A stretch of 64,000 nt of DNA from Dysidea avara (Eukaryota; Porifera; Demospongiae; Dictyoceratida; Dysideidae), in NCBI RefSeq assembly GCF_963678975.1, contig NC_089280.1, positions 18,202,780 to 18,266,779 on the forward strand. The letters run 5' to 3'. Made by a program: the position numbers and the translations under genes. This document shows, piece by piece, positions 1,288 to 61,440 of the stretch. Each line of letters opens with the position of its first letter. Position 1 is the first letter of the stretch. Below the pieces are notes generated by a model, which worked only from the letters and a program-made list of their open reading frames with translations, made no database searches and was not told where the DNA came from.

Positions 1288-2112
1288 TTGTCCATTACAA
1301 TGCCTTCACCTAATATATTTCCTTTTATTGACACCGGCACTGGTTGCTGTGTTGGGCTGCATGACACAGTATGTATACCGTGTTGCTTGATTACAGAGTT
1401 TCACTTGACATTATATATACTCCTTATACAAGACTTGACCTTCAATAGGTATTCACACATGATACATTGTTAACATAATTATAATGTGTTGGATGTATTT
1501 CAATCAATTTTGGTGGGAGTATAGGGGTTGCAGTACAAGGATACTGTGACACTCTAACTGATGATGGAGGATGGCTGGTCATTCAGAGGAGACAAGATGG
1601 ATCTGAAGATTTCAATCGATTTTGGTGGGAGTATGAGAGGGGATTTGGCAACTTGGCTGGTGAATTTTGGTATGGTTTGCATGCCATCCATTGTCTTACC
1701 AATCAAGGACAATGGGAGATACGTATTGACTACAAGTTTACTAAATGCATCAAATGGTTACCTATCATACAGTAACTTTAGAGTAGGACCTGTCGCTGAA
1801 CAGTATCCATTAACTATATCAGGATTTGAAGGATATACAGTTGATCCATTCTTTTTAAACACTTTCCATTTCCGTGATTCAATAAATGGAATGGCATTCA
1901 CAACCACCAGGGATAGGGACAATGATAAGTGGTTTACCAATTGTGCAGCTGATGGTTGGGAAGGTAAAGCTGGTGGATGGTGGTACAGACAATGCTCTAC
2001 CATCCCACTCAACCAAAAGTATGACAGCAATTCTACAATATTCCTTAACAACCACTGGTATAATCTACCATTTGTAGAAATCAAGATCAGACCAAGGAAT
2101 TGTAATATTTAA
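1288..2112 (+). pseudogene. Decayed fibrinogen-related domain (FReD) gene
   Basis: The body, about 1531-2112, encodes most of a fibrinogen C-terminal globular domain of the ficolin/tachylectin kind, a secreted sugar- or acetyl-group-binding fold. The first half reads GYCDTLTDDGGWLVIQRR, then FNRFWWEYERGFGNLAGEFW. The second half reads YSNFRVGPVAEQYPLTISGF, the calcium-site run TTRDRDNDKW, and a C-terminal WYNLPFVEIKIRP, ending at a stop at 2110-2112. The two halves lie in different frames. One extra A in the run near 1740-1745 (tttactaaatgc) is enough to explain the shift, because removing it gives a reading like the intact sister gene at 60682. No signal peptide or start exon is joined to it. 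A weak relic around 1290-1335 (PSPNIFPFIDT, compare PSPGIYTIRDP in the sister gene) suggests the 5' part was once continuous and has decayed. Host gene fragment; an assembly error could account for the single shift but not for the lost 5' end. Confidence 0.8.
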
Positions 2113-2823: not shown

Positions 2824-5800
2824 TCTTCCTCCCCTTTTTCTGACAGTTCTTCATTTTCTCGGTTTAATTTTACTATGTCCTAGCCACACTTGATCAGTTG
2901 GAATACTTTCTTTACATCTGGAAACCTTCTGTAGGGAGACACATCTTGCTTCACTGCCTGGTTCAGTCACTGGTTTAACTTTGACAGTGGTATTAGTAAC
3001 TTCATACAATTGATATGGTCCATGGTAAGTATAGATGTCAGTGTGCGGTTGAAACGTTTGATTAAGCCATCACACTGTGGGTGTCTTGGGGTGGTGGGGA
3101 GCTGTTTGATTCCCAGAATAAAAGCTGTATCTTGCAAAATATCTGCAAGGAATTCTGGAGCACGATCATGAATCAAAGAAGTAGGCACACCATGTCTGTA
3201 GATTAAATCTGCTAAGTATTTAGCAACATGCAGTTGCTGCAGTCCGGTCTGCCACTGCATATAACTCTGGCCATTTTGTTAAATAGTCTTGAAAGACTAA
3301 AGCATAGCGATTCTTATCAAAACTCTCATCCATTTCTTTAAAGTCCATGCCAACAATGGCAAAAGGTTCACCAACTGGGATGCTATGTAACGTAGGGTAC
3401 TGTCTTCTCTCTTGTCCTTGCACTGTTGCACAGGTGAGACATGACTCACACTTCTTAAAAACTGAAGAACTCATACCAGGCCAATAAAAACACAATTTCA
3501 ATTTCTGTAGGGTCTTCTTTACTGAAAAGTATCCAGCAAACAACTCATCATGGTGTTCTGCTACTACTTGATCTCTGGAACTACAAGACATCTTCGCCCT
3601 GGCACATCACTGCTTTCATAATACAGCACATCATCTAAAACAAAGTACCCTTTCTTTGCTACACTTAAAATTCTTTCTGGTCTTCTGGTAACTTCTTTTT
3701 TTCTAAATAATCAATGATACCAATTATCACCTGATCTTTTGACTGCTGGTCACGAATTTGCTGAATTAACTGCTCTTCAGGACTAAATGAAACTATCAGT
3801 ACTCTACCATCAAGTGACTCTTGATTCAGCATGGGTGCTCATGAAAGTGCATCGGCAGCCTCATTTAACTTCCCTGGCTTATGTTCAAGCATGAGGTCTG
3901 GTAGAAACTGAGCAATTTTCAGGTACCATCTCAACAATAATCCCTTTGATTGACCTTCCATAAAAGACAAATAATCAGATACAAGGGCTTGGTGGTCTGT
4001 ATAAACTGTTGTCTTATGTCCAAGCAAATATACTTCAAAGTGATTCAAAGCAAACACAATTGCTGCCATCTCTAACTTTGTAGGAGTATATTTTCTCTCA
4101 GTGTCATTGGTAACCCTACTAGCAAAAGCTACTGGATGTCGCTCATTGTCATCACCAACTTGTTCTAATACAGCTCCAAAGTCATTCTCGCAAACATCAA
4201 CCCATAGAAAAACTCCTTGTCAAGATCTGGTCATATTAGAACTGGTGCAGATACCAGTACTTGCTTTATAGTCTGGAAGGCTTCCTCACACTGCTCATTC
4301 CATTCAAACGGTACAGGTTGACCAGATTGTTTGTCTGTCTTTGTTAAAGCTGTTAAAGGCTTACTGATCAGTCCCATGTTTCTGACATGCCTCCGGTAGA
4401 AATTGGCTAACCCTAGAAATTATTTGACTTCCTTCATTGTGAATGGTCTAGAAAAATGTTTGATGGCATCAATATTCTTCTCTGTAGGACATACTTCTTT
4501 TGATGACAATACAAAGCCTAGGTACTCAACCTTGTGCTCAGCAATAGCACACTTTGAGGGCTTTACTCTGAATCCTGCTTGCTGAAGCCTCTGCAATACT
4601 TTCTTCAAATGAGTGATGTGTTCAGAAAAGGTTTTAGAAGCAATGAGAATATCGTCTAAATAAATGAATACAAAATCCCACCCAGCAAATAGTTTATCCA
4701 TTAATCTTTGAAACGTTGCTGGTGCGTTTGTAAGGCCAAATGGCATTCTACAGTATTGAAACAAGCCACGATGACAAATGAATGCTGTCTTTGCCTTAGA
4801 CTTATCTTCTCCATTTTGACCTGATGGTACCCACGCATCAGATCAAGGGTTGAAAAATACTTTGCCTTCTGGTTCCCAATAGCATCTATCAGCTCATCCA
4901 CTCGAGGTAATGGATAGTGATCTGGAACTGTATCCTTATTGATACTTCGATAGTCAACACAATGTCGAGGAGTGCCATCCTTCTTTTTAACTAGTACTAT
5001 TGGTGAAGCATAGAACTATTTGCCGGTTCTACACAATTGATTTGCAACAATTTATCTAGCTCCTCCTCTAGTTACTTTCTCAAGGCATATGGTAATCTTC
5101 TTGGAGCTTCTCTTACAGGATTTGCGCCTGCAGTGTCTATTGAATGTTCTACTACATCAGTTTCTCCTAACTCTTCATCACACAAAGCAAAAACTTGCTC
5201 ATGCTGAAATAAACTGTCCAGTAACTGCCTTCGTTCAGTATCAGAACATTGATCATTGATCTTGAATTCTTTCTTCAATTAATTCAATCAATCACTAACT
5301 TGACACATTCTAACTGACTGCTCTTCGATACTTTTGGGTGATTCTTCCCATAGGCTGTTCCACAATGGATCACCGTGTTCTACTAGACTAGCCTCTTCTA
5401 ACTGTCCAATGACTGTTCCTTTCTTGAACACTTGTGGTTGTGTTCCCCAATTAATCAAAGTAATTCTGCACAGAGTTTGACTTCCACAAATTCCATCAGC
5501 AAAATCACATTGTGCCTCACTCATAATATTTTCATCTGGAACAATAATCTGTAGACTATTGGGATTCAAGCTAGTGCTGTAATGCACTACATCAGCAATG
5601 GGTTTATATGTAGATTTCACAGTAAGTCGTGATTGTGCTGGCACAAGTTCAGTACACTGTAGCGTCATTTGTACACAGACGATCTTGTACACTGAAGTTA
5701 ACAGCCACTTGTTTCTGTGATTGGCCTACCACATCAATCCACACAGTGTGTCCAAGCATTAATTGCACAGTATGTTTCAAAACCATTGGAAGAACTATTG

Positions 5801-8256
5801 TAGGTCTGCTTGACTGCTGTGTTGTAGTTACTAAGTCTTGCAATGTTGAAGAAGCTGCTGGTTCAGCTAATGACTCTGTTGTGTCACCTGTGAATGGTAA
5901 AGGTAAGGATGGTAATTCTGATAATGAAATAGGTAAGCTGACTGACTCTTGACTAACGATTCACTTGTAGGTACTTCAGACAACTTTTGTGATTCCAGTA
6001 AATTTCCTGCCTGACTTAACTGCTGTTACAGTAGCAAACTTTCTGTAACCACCTCAATTCAATTAGAATGAATTATTCTAAAATCAAAGCCAACAAGGGC
6101 ATTTGTACCCATAATCATTCCACAGTTCCAAACTTCTCCTTGCCAAATATGCTTGGAAGAGTCCATCACATAGCAGGGAATTTGTAAGCTTAACCCAGTG
6201 ATTTCAATGACAACATGTAACTTTACCAAAGCCTTGGCACCAAGTGGGGAACCCTCTGCTCCATTGAGCTGAGTATCAAGGGATAAATGTTGGGCCAAAC
6301 AGAGACACTCCAATTTTGTTTTTCTTTGGTGTAGGGAAGCAATTGTTTTCTGACAATACATACTTGTGAGCCTGAATCAATAAATGCTCTTGTTGGAATG
6401 CCTCCAACTAATACATCAACCTTGTAAACTGAACCAACCACATTAGTATTACAGCATGTAGATGATTTACTTACAGATAACATACGTATCCATACCTCTG
6501 ATACTGACAGGCTTTCACTGTTTTCATCAACTGGTTGATTTACAAGCTGGTTAAATATTTGCTCTCTGTCAGTTGACTGGTCACATGATTATTGACTGCT
6601 CTGCTGTTTAATATCAACTGACTCATCGTGTAACTGTTTACTGCTATGCTGTTTACTATCAGCTGACTGACCTTCTGTTACAAGTTTCACTACATGAAAT
6701 GACCTTGCAAGATGACCCTTTTTGCCACACTTAAAACACTTAACTGTTGACATACTGGTACTGGCAGACTCTTGGCGGGACTGTGGGTAATTTGTTTTTC
6801 CATCATACCTGTAACTAGACCCCTTAAACTTGCTTTGAAACTCTCTCCCTTCTGAACCTTTGTAATTAAATCTTCTCTCTCTCTCTTTAACTGTTTCTTC
6901 AGCCTTCAACAACTTTTGAAACAATTCTTGCAAGGAACCTTCACTCATCTGGCCAACTTCTTTTTGTAGTTTAACAGGAGCCTTGTTCCACAATATGGAC
7001 TCCAAATTGGCATCAGATAACTTTTGAGGTGCCATCCTGTGATAGCCTCTCATCGATTCTAAAAGTCCTTGTACTGAGCCAAACTTGTCATAATACTCAT
7101 GACAGCATTGATAGGCAGTTCTTGGGTCCATGTACACTCCATATTGACCTCTAAAGACCTCAACTATCCTCTGCCGTGATGCTTTGTCTTCTGTTGTAAC
7201 AGTTCTTTGCCAGGTAACCTTTGCAGAATTAGACAAAAACCATGAGAACCAATGAGTTCTGTCATCATCTGTCCACATGCAGTCAGTTGTGGCTTGCATG
7301 AAGTCAACTAGCCAGACTTCAAAATTATTTTCACTACTCTTTCCAGAGAATTTATCAACTCGTTTCTGTAATTCTCTAAAACCTGGGGGACATTTGAAAG
7401 TAGGCACATTACCATCATTTTCACTACTATCACTATTATAGTCTTCTGAAGGAACAAACTGCTGCTGTACTGGCTGCTGCTGTGCTGGCTGGTCAGAAGG
7501 CAGTGGCTGTTCAGCTTGCTGTGACTTTCCTCCCTTCTTCCCATCTGGCTTCTCCTGTAAATTCAATTTTTGTTCCTCGAACAACTGGAGTATCCTGTCT
7601 CTGTCTGTTTTTGCTTCCAGTAGTTCTCTCTGTAAATGATCCACCAGGCGTTCTCTCTGTAAATGATCCACCAGGCGTTCTTTCTCTTGTAGTAACAGTT
7701 CACTAGTATGTAGTCGCTCTTCCAGAACAAGTGTTTTCGACTCTAACTCATACAATTTCTTTGTTACAGAACCTTGACTACAACAAATTGAACATACTGC
7801 CCATAGAGCATTACATTGTGACCGACATAGAAGAGTATATAGTTCTTCTGAAGGCTTATCAGGTTCTCTCATACATGACAGATGTTCCCAAAGCCCACAC
7901 AACTCACACTATAGAGCTTGGTCTACGTTCTTAACATTATTCCTACAACTAGCACAGGGAGCTTGGGCCATGACTAAAAAGTCTAAAGTTATGACACTAA
8001 CTAGCTTCTACCTGTACAACAAATCCTATCATTGGCTATGATGACACACACTCTAAACTAGTCTTAGGAAACTAAACCACTGTAAACTACTCTTACACTG
8101 AAGTGTTCCAATCTTCTTGAAGAGACTTGACAAGTTTCTAGTTCACCTTCTTCCTTCAGTATACTCTGGAATTTCTAGCTCACCTTCTTCCTTCAGTATA
8201 CTCAGGCTCTTCTGGCTCAGTGAATGTCTCAGTGTCTTGGTAGGACCTCCGAAAGT

Positions 8257-17702: not shown

Positions 17703-19902
17703 TTACTACGCATGGCATAATCTAAGTACAGAGTGCACAAATACTATATACATTAAACAATAACTCTGCTACGGGCTCTGTGACAAATCTCCATGCATGA
17801 TTTACAATACCATCAAAATCTATTACAAAAGTCTTCTTGCATTCATACATGTGACCGAATTTTGGAAAATCGTCGATATACGCACAATAGTACTTTTGTA
17901 ATAAAACGCATTTAAAAACTATGGGTAAAAAAACGCAAGCTCCAGAAAAAAATTATGCAAGTTTTTATTACCTCACTGGTGGGTGAATTAAGCCTCCAAT
18001 GGATAAATCCTGGGCATCATCGTGTTTGCCTGTTCATAGGGAGTACAAAAATCTTTGTTTCATCTCCATACACGAAAGGATTTCAAAGTTACAGACGTTT
18101 GTTTACGTTGCGGTGACAAAAGAATTTACCAATGATCGTTTTTCAGTGAATTTGCCTTCCTTCTCCAACACAGAAATATGCCTGGGGCAAAACTTATACC
18201 TTGGTGGATGCACAAATTCATGGCGAACACAATGAGCAAAGATTCAATTCCATATGCCATTGTATCAGTAAGTTATGATAGTTTATGTAAGCGCCTGTAG
18301 ATTATTTTCTTGATAGCTTCTGTACATATCAATTTATTTGCTCGTCCGGATGTCTAGTGCTGTATTTCCAACGCTATGAAGCTGAAACTTAGCTAGTCCA
18401 TTCTTCTGTCCCTGTAGAAAACAAAGAACAAATAAAATGCATTTTGAAAATTGTGCGGATATCGGCGGTTTTCTAAAATTAGGTCACATATGTTGTTTAG
18501 TCATACTCTATAGAACCAGTTGATGCATACGTGTCACTAAAATCTTCCATAGTGCAAAGAGGTGAATGGCATGCTCTCTAGCACATATTGATGCAAAGAC
18601 ATGCACACATACAGTATATGTAACTGTACTGTACATTCACACAACATACCCACCTTGTACTGTGAGAGTTCTTCCTCACTTCACTGATCACACTACCAGG
18701 GTTGCTAACAGAACCATCTGTCAAAATGAACACTTGTCGAGGTAGACCAGAAGACTGCGTGGGTTGTTTGAATATAAACTTCAATGGTTCAAGAAGTTCT
18801 GTACCACCAAAATCAGCTCTCATTGTCTTTGCAAACTCACTGGCTTTCTCCATTGTCTCTTGATTGTAAGGCATGCTGGATGGAAAGAAGGCTTCATATC
18901 TAGAACCAAAGCTGATGATGTTGAAGTAGCAACCTTCTGGAATACTTTTCAGAAATAACACTGTCCAGTGTTTCTGCTGCACTCACAATGTAAGAGCCAT
19001 CCATGCTACCACTACGATCCACTACAAAGATAAACTCACAGGCTGCTTCAACACTTGAAAACGTTGGAAAAAAGTTCAGTATCACTGCATAGCTCTGCAT
19101 TTCTCTCATATTGCTCCCCTCTATCGGTGCTTCTACAATGGCCATTGGCATATGAGGATCTTTGTATCCAATTAATACTGTGACATCTCCTCTTATTGGA
19201 CCTTCATCTGCAATACAAACATTCATACTATCTGCAACGTGCTCTGTCTTTAGCTGATGAGTTGGTGAAGACACTTCTGCAACTCTACTAGCTCCTTCTA
19301 CTGTCATCTTAAACTGGAATACTCCAGCAACAGATGCTTGCTTTACACTTGGGTTTTGTGTAGTAGCTAGTGGATCAGTTGATCCTTGTGGAGTGTAACG
19401 TGGCTTTAACACTGATGGTAAAGTGAACCTTACACGACCATCTGCTTCAATTGGTAGTTCTCCAACCATTCTGATGTTTATCTCTGCCTTACTTCCTGAT
19501 GGAAGATTACCAAGACTTAAGCTAAAAATATCTCCGGATTTCTCCTCCGCGTACGCAGCAGACAGTCCACTGGTGATGGCATCATCGTACATGTCCCTGG
19601 CTTTCTCTTTCTCGTGTATCGTGGCCTTGATTTTTCTCCCATCAATAGTAGCTTCTAATCTGACCACTGCGAACGATTCCTCGAGGGGAAATCGGAACGT
19701 CACTTCCAAAGGATTGCTAGTGTCATTCGAGTAACTTAGAGTTGACGAGAGTCCAAACAGATAACCCTTCACGTTCACGTGCACCGAAACATCCTTGAGT
19801 GGCAGAACTGTCTTGTCGGAAGAGACCAATCCCACAACTCCTGTCATTATCAATTCGAGATCTACCGGTATTGCCGGATATGGGTTCAGTGTAAAAGGTG
19901 GG

Positions 19903-19975
19903 TAGTCTCGTGCCCATCCGGGCTCGCGCTAATGCGCAAACACGCATCAGCGCGAGCCCGGATGGGCACGAGACT
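19903..19975. repeat. 73-bp perfect hairpin insertion with 11-bp direct repeats
   Basis: Arms 19904-19930 and 19949-19975 are exact 27-base inverted repeats (AGTCTCGTGCCCATCCGGGC and onward) around an 18-base loop that itself can partly pair. The direct repeat TAAAAGGTGGG stands on both sides (19892-19902 and 19975-19985). It lies about 60 bp upstream of the VWA5A-like start codon, in what should be its promoter or leader, and is far more G+C-rich than its surroundings. Confidence 0.9.
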
Positions 19976-36400: not shown

Positions 36401-37479
36401 GGACTCAGCTGTACTATATATTATTAGTTAGCCAAATTTGTAAACTAATGTAGTTGGGTGCATATGAAATTCAAAGCTGAAAATTGTATGTATATGTATA
36501 TTACAGTGATACCATCACCAACAACTTAAAATACACCTCATTAAATCTTTAATCACAGTTCTACATTTAAATTACCCACCTCTTGAGCATTCTCACATTG
36601 GAACACATGACAGTGAAATATGCCACTTGTCTTGTGCCTCACGTTGAAGGCAAAACAGTCAAGCATGTCAGGCGATGCTCCTCGGACACAGAACAAGATA
36701 GTTTTTACTGGAAATGTAGCCAGCGGTTGGTCTGTTTCAGGGTCTTTAAGAGCCACTTTTCCTGTACTCATTGTTGGCACTAACAAGTTAACAGGAATTG
36801 CTTGAGCTGCATCACTGTGCTTCTTAAGTATTCCAATTTTTCTGTTAGCTTCTACTTCACTGATAGGAGCATTGACAGTGGTAGAACCCAGATAGATTAC
36901 ACCCCTATAAACATAAGCTGGTTCATAAGTTTGTTCCTGGTCCAGTGAACTAGTCGAAGGTATTCTCAGAGGAGAAACAGTATGCTTTTTAGAAGGTTCA
37001 GTTTTTTCTTCCTGTTTAGTATTCTCAGCACTGTTAACACTTTGCTCCACAGCTGGGGCTTCTTTAGCACCTTTCTCATCATTTTCAATTTTTTCTGGTG
37101 TTTCAGTGTTCTGGTTGACGACAGGGATGTCAGGGCTGCTTGGCGTTGCCTCTCGGCTTTTCTTTTCGCTACTAGATGACACAGAAGATGTCTCTGCATT
37201 CACTAACTCTTTAGAGCCAGCATTCTCTCCAGGCAGGTAAGCCAAGAGTGGGTTATCATTTGGTTTATTAGATGATGAAGATTCACTGGAAGAAGACTCA
37301 TCACTACTGTCGGAGCTGTCATCTTTTACGCCATATACCAGTTGATAAGGGTCACCTTGTAATGGGGTGTGTTCTTTATCATGTTTAATATCATCAGGAG
37401 TCAAGGCTGGGTTCTGTACTACAAGTGTTCCATCATCCTGATGCCCTCCAGTGCCCCCCAGCTCCCCTGTATCTGCCAT
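27489..37479 (-). CDS. RABGAP1: RABGAP1-type Rab GTPase-activating protein (PTB + TBC)
   Basis: Twenty-one exons join without a break: 37479-36580, 35449-35402, 34479-34277, 33739-33673, 33582-33483, 33091-33019, 32323-32218, 32120-31886, 31519-31362, 30745-30647, 30317-30135, 29827-29699, 29504-29361, 28954-28913, 28854-28726, 28678-28586, 28508-28398, 28341-28237, 27978-27895, 27847-27776, 27728-27489. They sum to 3321 bases, 1106 residues, close to human RABGAP1 (1069). In order: an acidic, Ser-rich N-terminus, a PTB domain (YLGSTTVNAPISEVEANRKI ... ILFCVRGASPDMLDCFAF), the kinesin-like/DUF3694 region (LLLSPGKNVKHSEMNLLDM ... AEPVRFVREVKVRVL), a Ser/Pro linker, the TBC domain with both catalytic fingers (IxxDxxR as INWDIKRTY, YxQ as GYCQG), and a C-terminal coiled coil. 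The family makes Rab GTPases hydrolyse GTP on endosomal and Golgi membranes and at mitosis. One intron uses a GC-AG pair (AAAG|GCAAGT after 28726). A tRNA gene lies in the intron after 28237. RABGAP1L is the alternative name; the sponge gene may be co-orthologous to both. Confidence 0.93.
28062..28172 (-). tRNA. tRNA-Leu (anticodon CAA) with an intron
   Basis: The minus strand begins GTCAGGATGGCCGAGTGGTC (acceptor stem and D arm with A box) and ends with GGTTCGAATCC (B box), the pairing TTCTGAC and discriminator A. The anticodon loop reads ACTCAAG, giving CAA, followed by an intron of about 20 bases (GTTAAACCTTACTTGCGTAG or nearby) and a long variable arm as in all leucine tRNAs. The layout is that of eukaryotic tRNA-Leu-CAA genes, which usually carry such an intron. 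It sits inside an intron of the RABGAP1 gene on the same strand. A short run of T on the minus strand beyond the 3' end is consistent with polymerase III termination. Confidence 0.95.
28998..29046. repeat. CA-rich microsatellite in a RABGAP1 intron
   Basis: Interrupted (CA)n with GCATGCACG in the middle, in the intron between exons 13 and 14. Confidence 0.9.
31129..31355. repeat. CA-rich low-complexity tract in a RABGAP1 intron
   Basis: ACACA-rich sequence with scattered ATG and CAT triplets fills most of the intron downstream of exon 9. It produces overlapping open frames on both strands that are not genes. Confidence 0.85.
34060..34210. repeat. Tandem duplication of about 80 bp in a RABGAP1 intron
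   Basis: GAGGTCATGAAGTACACTTTAG is followed by GACCTACTTGACAT in both units, at about 34072 and 34151. The copies differ by a few bases and a small indel. It lies just downstream of exon 3. Confidence 0.85.
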
Positions 37480-37778
37480 GTTTTGTTCTAACAAGTACAA
37501 AACCACACATTACTCCCTGCACACACAGCGTGCATACACCAGTTCATTGTACGTATGCATTTATCTGTATGGACCACTTTCAATACATGTAGTATTAAAA
37601 CGCCAGCTTTTGCCAATTCATGGCTTTACACGTGACTTTGAAATATAATGATAAAACACCTCAGCTTACCTAGTCTTACGGTTGTTCTATAATTCTTCTA
37701 CAAGTAAAATTGTACTCCCATGAGCTTACATCAACACTACACATTTTAATTTTGTTTCATAGTGCGCTTTAGTTGGAA
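37480..37778. promoter_or_regulatory. Presumed bidirectional promoter (RABGAP1 / DAD1-like)
   Basis: Only 299 bp separate two divergent start codons. No TATA box is obvious. A CACGTGA E-box-like site lies at about 37629-37635. The region must contain the promoters and leaders of both the RABGAP1 gene (minus) and the DAD1-like/PPIL1 unit (plus), so shared control is likely; this is inferred from spacing alone. Confidence 0.55.
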
Positions 37779-51734: not shown

Positions 51735-52164
51735 TATAACACATTACCAACACATGGACAACCTTCAGCCTTAGTTACCAAACTTGGGACAAGCTTTTTA
51801 GAAGGGGGTAGTGAACTATTATATTTATGCATCTATTTATCTGCACCCACAAGATGTATTTATAATGAATGCAAGTGTGTCTGTAATTGACTCTGATTAT
51901 TTCCTTAAATGTGTGACAAATTTATTATTCTATTACAGGTGGCTGCAGCAGCTATACTTCCTGATCATTACTGACTAGATTGTCTACATAGTTGTTAATG
52001 CACATATATGGTCTTGCAGCCACATAAATTGCCCATTGATTTGTTTTCAAGGAAGATTCTGTGAAATCATAACTATAAATACAGAAATCATAACTATGAA
52101 TATAGAAATCAACAGTAATGTGGTCATTAATAAGAAGAAGGAATTTAATCAGTTGTAGCTGAAA

Positions 52165-52864
52165 ATGGCTGACAAGAAAACAAGTAAGTCTTTGGAGTTA
52201 TAATAATAGATAACTGTACTATGTGTAGCAATAAGTTATATTGTTTGCCTCTATATAGTTAGCACTCCCAAATCCCTGGTAGGACCATGGTACAATGAAC
52301 TGGGTTCTGTGATGGAGATTCGTGATAGCACTGAGGAGGGTGTGTTAGTAGGTAGATTCAACTCAACTGTGGGAAATGCTGAGGGTTGGTATGAATTAAG
52401 AGGTAAGCTGCATACTGAATTTGTGTTGTGTTTATCATAAAATTGTGGTAATTAATAATAACAGATACGGTTACTTGTTTGCAGCTATATAGTTCACATA
52501 ACATGTGTATAGTGTTTCAATTTTGGGACCATATCTGTCACTCTTGTATATAGGCACATATGACAAAGATGGTTCAGAGAGTTTTGGAACTATAGGTTGG
52601 GCTGTTACATTTAACAATTCGGAACAAGGCGACTCCTGTTCTACTTGCACTTGGTCTGGACTGAGGAAACTGCAACTTGATGGCAATCCAGTCATAATTA
52701 CTACATGGCTGTTAACCAGGCAGAAGAAGGAGGATACAAAGATCTGGGAATCTACCCATGTCAACAAAGATTACTTTTATAGGACACTGCCTAAAGATGA
52801 AAAGATACAGGCAGCACCAACTGCCCAGAATTCCAAGGAACCTGCTAGTACAAAATCAGATTAA
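52165..52864 (+). CDS. Avidin/streptavidin-family biotin-binding protein
   Basis: Three exons (52165-52183, 52259-52402, 52554-52864) join in frame to 157 residues. The avidin beta-barrel spans residues 13-130 and follows bacterial streptavidin closely: GPWYNELGS (GTWYNQLGS in streptavidin), VGNAEGWYELRGTYD, IGWAVTFNN, TWSG, TTWLLT, IWESTHVNKDYF. Mapping streptavidin's biotin contacts gives N19, S23, S42, V44, G45, N46, S84, W88, W106, L108, W119 and D127 kept (for N23, S27, S45, V47, G48, N49, S88, W92, W108, L110, W120, D128); F40 replaces Y43, F74 replaces W79 and C86 replaces T90. W119 is the residue that reaches into the neighbouring subunit, so a dimer or tetramer is plausible. Unlike most avidins it has no signal peptide (MADKKTISTPKSLVG), so it is probably cytosolic, and it has a polar C-terminal tail. 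Function inferred: tight binding of biotin, for defence or storage. The introns show it is a eukaryotic gene and not a contaminant. Confidence 0.93.
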
Positions 52865-60190: not shown

Positions 60191-60681
60191 AAAAATCTTT
60201 ATATTATCTTGTGATTTGTATAACATACATACATAATAGCACTTCACATACATTACTCTGTGAATGCTATCCCACTAGGGACCTGTGAGAAGGCTTAAAG
60301 CCTGTGAATACAGGGAGTCAGAAACATGTAACTAAAACGTGAAGAATGCAGTAGTGACTTGATCCCCAGCAACATGCAGTCTAGGCATGTGCCAAAGGAG
60401 CCACAACAGCTGGGTTATATACCTTATGTGTAAATTCTAGCAATCGTGAGAATACTTTCACATAATAAACAAGCCATACACTAGTTTGATGGGCTCCAGA
60501 GTTTTGTACATTACCTAATATAGAATAGCAATGCTGTACATAAAACAGACGTGATTAGATGTAAGTACTATACACAACATCTCAAAACAGCCATATTAGG
60601 AAGTACAAGACCACTATAAAGTTGTGTGTTTACTGATCATTTCAGCCAATCTTTTAGTAGCAGTAAAGTTGATAGTTGACA

Positions 60682-61440
60682 ATGATTGTTGTTACAATTG
60701 TTATAACAGTACTAGTTCTAGTTAGTGCTACAACAGTTGATGGATCTGTGATAGATAACTGTTGTAGTGTTACAGCTAAAGGTAACTACTTTGCTACAAA
60801 GAGACCATCTCCAGGAATATATACCATCAGGGATCCCTGCTCAACAACCACATCAGGACATACAACACAAGGATATTGTGACACACTAACTGATGGTGGA
60901 GGATGGATGGTAATCCAGAGGAGAATACAAGGTGTTAATGAAGACTTCAATAGATTCTGGTGGGAATATGAACTAGGATTTGGTAATCTCCAAACTGAAT
61001 TTTGGTGCGGACTGCACTCCCTACACTGCTTAACCAGTAAAAGACAATGGGAACTATGGATAGACCTCACATTTGCCAATGGAACTGACACTTATCTCCA
61101 CTATAATCACTTCAGTGTAGGATCACCAAATACAAGCTATACACTAAGTATATCAGGATTTACTGGGATTACTCCATGGGATCCATTTACTAAATATTCC
61201 TTAAGTGGACAACAATTCACCACTCGCGATAGAGACAATGACAAATAGAGTGGAAATTGTGCAGTTAATGGACATGGTCCTAATGGTACAGGTGGATGGT
61301 GGCATACTCATTGCAATTGGATCAACCTGAGCTTCAACTACAAACATAGTGGATCACAGGGGTTTACTTACCTAGACTACAAATGGCATGATCCATCATT
61401 CATAGAAATGGAAATACGCAAAATGGGATGTACTGCCTAG
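60682..61440 (+). pseudogene. Secreted fibrinogen-domain (FReD) protein gene with one internal stop
   Basis: A single-exon frame of 252 codons from ATG 60682 to TAG 61438-61440. It starts with a signal peptide (MIVVTIVITVLVLVSATTVDG), then CCSVTAKGNYF and a full fibrinogen C-terminal domain: GYCDTLTDGGGWMVIQRR, FNRFWWEYELGFGNLQTEFW, HYNHFSVGSPN, YTLSISGF, calcium-site FTTRDRDNDK, GGWWHTHCNW and C-terminal FIEMEIRKMGC. The codon at 61246-61248 is TAG where the family has Trp (NDKW; compare TGG in the copy at 1531-2112), so translation should stop at residue 188 and lose the binding pocket. Everything else is intact, so this is a very young pseudogene, a null allele, or a base error. In sponges and other invertebrates such secreted FReDs act as lectins in recognition and immunity. 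A start at TTG 60676 is not needed. Confidence 0.85.

Follow-up and report, generated by a model that had tools for sequence, protein, structure and literature searches.

We report here an avidin-family gene in the genome of the sponge Dysidea avara, located within a 64,000-nucleotide stretch (the window; C9:18202780-18266779) of a chromosome-scale assembly comprising 550,814,596 bases in 108 contigs. The gene contains three exons and encodes a protein with a conserved biotin site and no hydrophobic leader, and its comparison with paralogues in the same genome gives dN/dS ratios below 1. Judged from its sequence and by analogy with mushroom tamavidins, we consider it moderately probable that the product, one of a small multigene family, works in the cytosol as a leaderless avidin with an antinutritional role in defence.

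Passages of a 2021 paper on bacterial avidins (PMC8033661) describe known eukaryotic avidins as secreted, name birds, reptiles, amphibians, fish, sea urchin, lancelet, and fungi as avidin hosts, leave many eukaryotic avidins uncovered, and raise plasmid-borne transfer. A 2026 paper covering 130 fish avidins states in part that the biological significance of avidins is poorly characterised (PMC13425791). None of the open-licence PMC papers listed has a sponge avidin as its title subject. Sponge and coral avidins are already in databases, and the bacterial transfer raised in an earlier note on this DNA is unproven; a leaderless multigene family in an animal is moderately surprising. Such a constrained family, with biotin perhaps obtained from symbionts, provides a test case for the role of intracellular avidins, whether defence or vitamin storage.

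Gene structure, family membership, and biotin site

The gene is encoded on the plus strand by exons at 52165-52183, 52259-52402, and 52554-52864, and the product is 157 amino acids long. A 5′ leader (52113..52164, +) adjoins the start codon, contains an in-frame TAG (52156-52158, +) at −9 from the ATG, and aligns with the paralogue at C9:15.176 Mb in a blastn block spanning 52113-52208. Exon 1 (+), which the C9 paralogue shares, codes for MADKKT plus 1 nt and is followed by intron 1 (52184..52258, +; 75 bp, phase 1). Exon 2 (+) supplies the first barrel strands, including GPWYNELGS and VGNAE, and intron 2 (52403..52553, +; 151 bp, phase 1) interrupts the frame at LRG|TYD, a place common to the C9 paralogue. 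Exon 3 (+) encodes the remaining barrel (TWSG, TTWLL, and WESTHVNKD), the C-terminal tail, and a TAA stop. The earlier note's three-exon model is borne out, with the ATG at 52165, the stop ending at 52864, and GT..AG borders at both introns. The gene is real and chromosomal, and not a contaminant, since the same genome holds an intact paralogue, further copies, and one broken copy, with dN/dS values of 0.24-0.45.

Of nine neighbouring ORFs in the window, four have family matches that pass the cut-off (two to fibrinogen C and one each to VIT and PTB), which in our judgement suits an animal genome. The fibrinogen C-terminal domain stretches (PF00147) lie near either end of the window at 1558-2109 (+) and 60676-61245 (+), the VIT-domain ORF at 18903-19928 (−), and the PTB/PID-domain ORF at 36556-37509 (−). 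Retroelement-like ORFs with gag- and pol-like stretches, recognised by eye, occupy 3223-7908 (−).

Avidin (PF01382) was the sole family returned by hmmscan, scoring 83.9 bits where the curated cut-off is 24 (E 1.4e-23), with protein residues 13-129 matching profile positions 2-115 of 116. Among the best 60 of 162 PDB matches, tamavidin 2 is the top natural one (E 3.6e-20), followed by streptavidin C1 (E 7.7e-19) and streptavidin 1stp (E 8.3e-18); two double-length "streptavidin" chains, with two matched stretches each, outscore tamavidin 2. Judged by these profile and PDB matches, membership of the avidin family, as first claimed from the sequence, is secure and far beyond chance.

Alignment to streptavidin shows 13 of 17 biotin-site positions kept (N23, L25, S27, S45, V47, N49, A50, S88, W92, W108, L110, W120, and D128) and four changed (Y43F, W79F, A86S, and T90C). 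This count uses 17 of 18 aligned positions; position 132, which we take to make no biotin contact, was dropped. The contact positions and the wild-type V47 and N49 are those generally given for streptavidin, because the aligned streptavidin row (P0091) is an engineered variant. The earlier estimate of 12 of 15 contacts kept was about right, and the three exchanges that it named, Y43F, W79F, and T90C, are all correct by this alignment. Both aligned paralogues, on C9 and C8, retain Tyr43; at positions 49, 79, and 90 they carry Asp, Tyr, and Cys, respectively, so that VGNAE is replaced by VGDAK.

Residue frequencies were counted in 207 relatives (212 minus P0007, P0117, P0120, P0001, and P0002), a set that included the engineered P0091 and fragments from the D. 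avara genome itself. In the 198 of these read by motif, position 79 is occupied by Trp 109 times, by Tyr or Phe 88 times, and by Arg once, and position 90 is Cys in 34; W79F and T90C are thus common variants. None of the remaining 13 rows in the biotin-site alignment has Y43F, and among the three aligned paralogues it occurs in the window copy only. All three exchanges are expected to affect biotin affinity, and Y43F removes one hydrogen bond to the ureido oxygen of biotin. With this bond lost, and Y43F unique to it among the aligned paralogues, the window copy may bind biotin more weakly. The suggestion that extra cysteines form disulphides is a weak one, since cysteines other than Cys90 vary between the aligned paralogues and the protein is probably cytosolic.

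Leader and paralogous copies

The leader of the window protein, MADKKTISTPKSLVGP, is hydrophilic, with a maximum 10-residue hydropathy of 0.36 versus 3.12 and 3.47 in the secretory-looking relatives P0013 (octocoral) and P0169. No signal peptide is recognisable by hydropathy, and the in-frame TAG at −9 closes the frame upstream. The earlier note had reported a missing signal peptide and suggested an intracellular role; the former holds on both counts, and the latter is supported and probable. The C9 paralogue likewise begins MADKKT and has an in-frame stop at −9, TAA where the window gene has TAG. Blastn (E 0.01) of the 4 kb above the window ATG against approximately 3 kb above the paralogue ATG found nothing before 52113, and a conserved upstream leader exon was rejected because the similarity starts there. 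A short similarity near 52000-52030 was seen by eye, and a longer shared 5′ region of the two genes is possible. Leaders of 6-11 residues occur in 4 of 17 relatives measured (fungal P0042 and P0048, P0144, and archaeal P0180).

Searches of the D. avara genome produced 8 matches from 8 candidates with a profile and 10 from 14 with a protein, and the genome contains five exon-3 copies. The intact C9 paralogue (C9:15176248-15176950, minus strand) consists of three exons separated by introns of 100 and 138 bp, and its splice phases match those of the window gene. A broken copy (L012 and L049; C9:17.814-17.823 Mb, minus strand) lies about 0.43 Mb from the window gene; it shares 81-83% identity with the window protein over exon 3, contains a stop codon, and has a disrupted exon 2. 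A gag-like sequence, seen by eye, directly follows this exon-2 remnant, ~7.7 kb before exon 3. The C8 group (1795-1803 kb) contains a single exon 2 and two copies of exon 3. One exon 3 (L011; C8:1802756-1803058, minus strand) has an intact frame, and tblastn recognised no exon 2 for it in the 1800-1809 kb above. Another C8 copy (L010; C8:1799.70-1799.92 kb, minus strand) shows by eye an exon-1-like stretch that lacks an ATG, and an in-frame hydrophobic stretch beginning at an ATG, MINPYILILCCFIAVATA, stands ahead of its exon 2. This stretch is possibly a signal peptide born from the intron end, or merely a pyrimidine-rich intron end; if the copy has gained a signal peptide, a cytosolic location may not hold for every family member. 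Elsewhere in the nuclear genome, 21 of 27 candidates match mitochondrial cox1, on C8 and other chromosomes; in the longest copy (C8:25954946-25956247), TGA reads as Trp and one TAG is present.

The NG86 dN/dS ratio is 0.384 (154 codons; 0.443 by YN00) between the window gene and the C9 paralogue, 0.414 (145 codons; 0.446 by YN00) between the window gene and the C8 copy, and 0.235 (144 codons) between the C9 and C8 copies.

Relatives and phylogeny

A single-protein search returned six proteins from 22 candidates, one of them the window's own. Searching with a nine-row alignment passed 216 proteins, and the named relatives among the 120 listed are the octocorals Dendronephthya and Paramuricea, fungi, Streptomyces, other actinobacteria, and synthetic constructs. 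An alignment of window-type sequences passed 509 proteins, of which 120 were listed. We inspected 24 window-type ORFs from other records (P0002, P0123-P0143, P0153, and P0205), which sit on other contigs of up to 4.77 Mb. Homology begins before TYD, at the intron 2 border, in 23 of them, while P0143 gave no score, and the exon-2 part was seen in none of the 24. We guess that these contigs belong to other sponges; P0123, and likewise P0115, may come from D. avara itself or from a species very close to it. A sponge avidin is already publicly annotated as "Streptavidin-V2" of Geodia barretti (P0172). In seven relatives (P0151, P0155, P0167, P0170, P0172, P0090, and P0146), the leader is 36-54 residues long and includes 5-8 basic (Lys/Arg) and 1-4 acidic (Asp/Glu) residues; an RxLSST-like stretch occurs in the leaders of P0151 and P0155. 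By eye and residue counts, such long-leader avidins, including that of G. barretti, are possibly mitochondrial.

A scan of 84,980 prokaryotic species genomes with two patterns yielded eight avidin loci from 37 stretches, in Flavivirga, a Nitrospirota MAG, Actinokineospora, Amycolatopsis, an Alteromonadaceae MAG, Actinosynnema, an actinobacterial MAG, and a cyanobacterial MAG fragment. In one scan of viral contigs, 10 stretches fit the pattern and none encoded an avidin relative, so viral relatives were rejected as candidates. P0180 is an avidin of the ammonia-oxidising archaeon Nitrosopumilus ureiphilus, and is leaderless; in tree 3 it clusters with P0165 and P0177 (100/99), and P0202 is a further relative of note beside them. 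The one literature match listed for avidins in archaea and Nitrosopumilus concerned biotin synthesis.

Three trees were computed, in which no root was inferred and row groups are our own labels, guesses except for named rows. Tree 1 (121 rows, made up of five typed rows and 116 of the 122 proteins returned) puts its three window-type rows in a set of 75 (SH-aLRT 95) that also includes octocoral rows and many without organism names; the window-type branch measures 1.73. In tree 2 (78 rows, six from the prokaryote scan), the three window-type rows are placed weakly (65/22) on a branch of 1.58, the window rows and 33 animal-like rows already form a clade (87/86), and AU tests rejected none of four alternatives; neither of these two trees gave the window-type rows a stable position. 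Tree 3 has 92 rows (87 hand-chosen from 212 returned proteins, three window-type rows, Flavivirga, and Nitrospirota) and gains eight fragments of the window type plus six further rows. Here, a window-type clade (99/93) is nested in a larger one of 17 rows (99/97) that contains no named bacterium; the rows of the larger clade outside the window type (P0147, P0151, P0155, P0169, P0179, and P0189) all lack an organism name. Another clade (100/95) holds 23 octocoral- and Geodia-type rows, a third (100/91) holds 19 rows without organism names, and all 59 rows with an animal-like label lie to the same side of a low-support branch (52/73).

Trees constrained to join the window type with the 19 rows of the third clade or with the octocoral/Geodia set gave p-AU values of 0.483 and 0.505, respectively. 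Joining it with 11 bacteria-type rows, two of them named bacteria, gave a p-AU of 0.275 at a cost of 8.6 log units, and with 12 actinobacterial/fungal-type rows 0.389 at 5.3 log units. The free tree 3 does not nest the window gene among bacteria, and the AU test does not reject the constrained trees that do. The phylogeny proposed in the earlier note as a check supplied a supported clade free of named bacteria, with several deeper placements statistically acceptable. As part of our preferred explanation as a whole, which we regard as moderately probable, the window gene would represent one deep branch of animal-like avidins. If the relatives without names are animals, this branch is one undescribed in the titles and abstracts among the literature matches listed.

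Proposed role, alternatives, and comparison with known avidins

If expressed, as we infer, the protein would adopt the avidin beta-barrel fold, probably as an oligomer, and the barrel would hold biotin tightly. It would stay inside sponge cells and act once tissue is eaten, damaged, or invaded, withdrawing free biotin from the predator or microbe, as proposed for cytoplasmic mushroom tamavidins. This scheme would suit a sessile, soft-bodied animal that is exposed to grazing and whose avidin lacks a leader. One paper describes in part the tamavidins as cytoplasmic and reports that tamavidin 1 made in A. gossypii reduced nematode numbers to <4% of control, that the producing E. coli and A. gossypii were unharmed, and that the authors ascribed the toxicity to biotin sequestration (PMC6238071). 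In Hydractinia, a passage names an avidin-like gene as a marker of epithelial cells in a venom-gene-expressing cluster (PMC11876637). Zebrafish avidin knock-outs count against defence, as development and Streptococcus agalactiae resistance were, in the portion of the study cited, unchanged (PMC13425791).

The protein might instead be an intracellular biotin store or buffer, with the host obtaining biotin from symbionts or food and holding it in a cytosolic avidin or, in relatives, perhaps a mitochondrial one; we consider this distinctly less probable than defence. The leaderless start of the window gene agrees with storage, and presequence-like leaders would bring relatives to mitochondria, the organelle in which most biotin carboxylases reside. 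Typical avidin-biotin binding is nearly irreversible, which suits storage poorly unless affinity is lowered, and Y43F could ease release. Part of a study of the Xestospongia muta holobiont reports microbial biotin-synthesis transcripts and a sponge holocarboxylase synthetase (PMC4412061), as storage would have it. A broader proposal, which we rate as speculative and improbable, is that intracellular avidins belong to the normal biotin economy of sponges and their kin, a cytosolic family and kin with mitochondrial presequences metering biotin near carboxylases with affinity tuned by Y43F, W79F/Y, and T90C. It is very improbable that the window locus is decaying into a pseudogene, with function kept by the paralogue at C9:15.18 Mb. 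In favour of decay, its end branch is long (0.25-0.30 versus 0.0015-0.065 for the C9 paralogue), Y43F is present, and a closely related copy ~0.43 Mb along the chromosome has already broken down; however, the frame and splice sites are intact, every site tryptophan except W79 is kept, dN/dS to the paralogue is below 1, and the C8 copy has equally long end branches (0.31-0.43).

As to origin, the earlier note raised acquisition of the gene from bacteria, with introns gained afterwards, and cited Asp128 and the VGNAE loop. We rejected both as bacterial marks, and the argument from them fails: in 201 relatives of the set described above, read by a second motif, position 128 is Asp in 190, and VGNAE is absent from the two paralogues. 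Leaderless bacterial avidins do exist (the Flavivirga, Nitrospirota, and Alteromonadaceae loci, with start codons picked by eye), and the AU tests on trees 2 and 3 do not reject a bacterial placement. Against a recent transfer, which is unlikely, stand the diverged paralogues, the tree 3 clade, and the ORFs of this type on many other contigs whose homology starts at that same border (23/24 inspected); given these ORFs, any transfer was probably old. An ancient bacterial source is possible, the constraint with bacteria-type rows being the one at p-AU 0.275.

Returning to the preferred reading of a cytosolic defensive avidin, the window protein can be set beside several known avidins. Chicken avidin and zebavidin belong to the same family, are secreted, and probably have an intron near the leader/barrel border. 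Vertebrate avidin genes have four exons, according to passages of two papers (PMC3811995 and PMC1082904). The second intron probably lies elsewhere in vertebrates, because exon 2 of zebrafish avidin is given in the published portion as 211 bp versus 144 bp in the window gene, and an intron shared with them was rejected on these sizes. Relatives such as P0004 run through the intron 2 place, although their records could be transcripts. Streptavidin and the Streptomyces avidins are secreted and share site residues, Asp128, and the VGNAE loop with the window protein; the 15 named Streptomyces rows among the matches listed are 33-42% identical to it and fall in a different clade.

Octocoral avidins (Dendronephthya P0003, P0005, and P0012 and Paramuricea P0013) share 41-46% identity with the window protein. 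P0003, P0005, and P0013 have Tyr/Cys at 79/90, and P0013, less clearly P0003 and P0012, has a secretory-looking leader, unlike the window protein. The G. barretti avidin is likewise from a sponge; it falls in the octocoral-avidin clade (100/95), outside the window clade, and differs in its W79, T90, and presequence-like leader. Tamavidins 1 and 2 of Pleurotus cornucopiae are fungal and lie apart from the window type in tree 2, as other fungal avidins do in tree 3, and tamavidin 2 retains W79 and T90 where the window protein has F79 and C90. They belong to the same family as the window protein, and their cytoplasmic location and the biotin starvation of predators proposed for them would match the role suggested for it; tamavidin 2 is its best natural match among the best 60 of 162 in the PDB.
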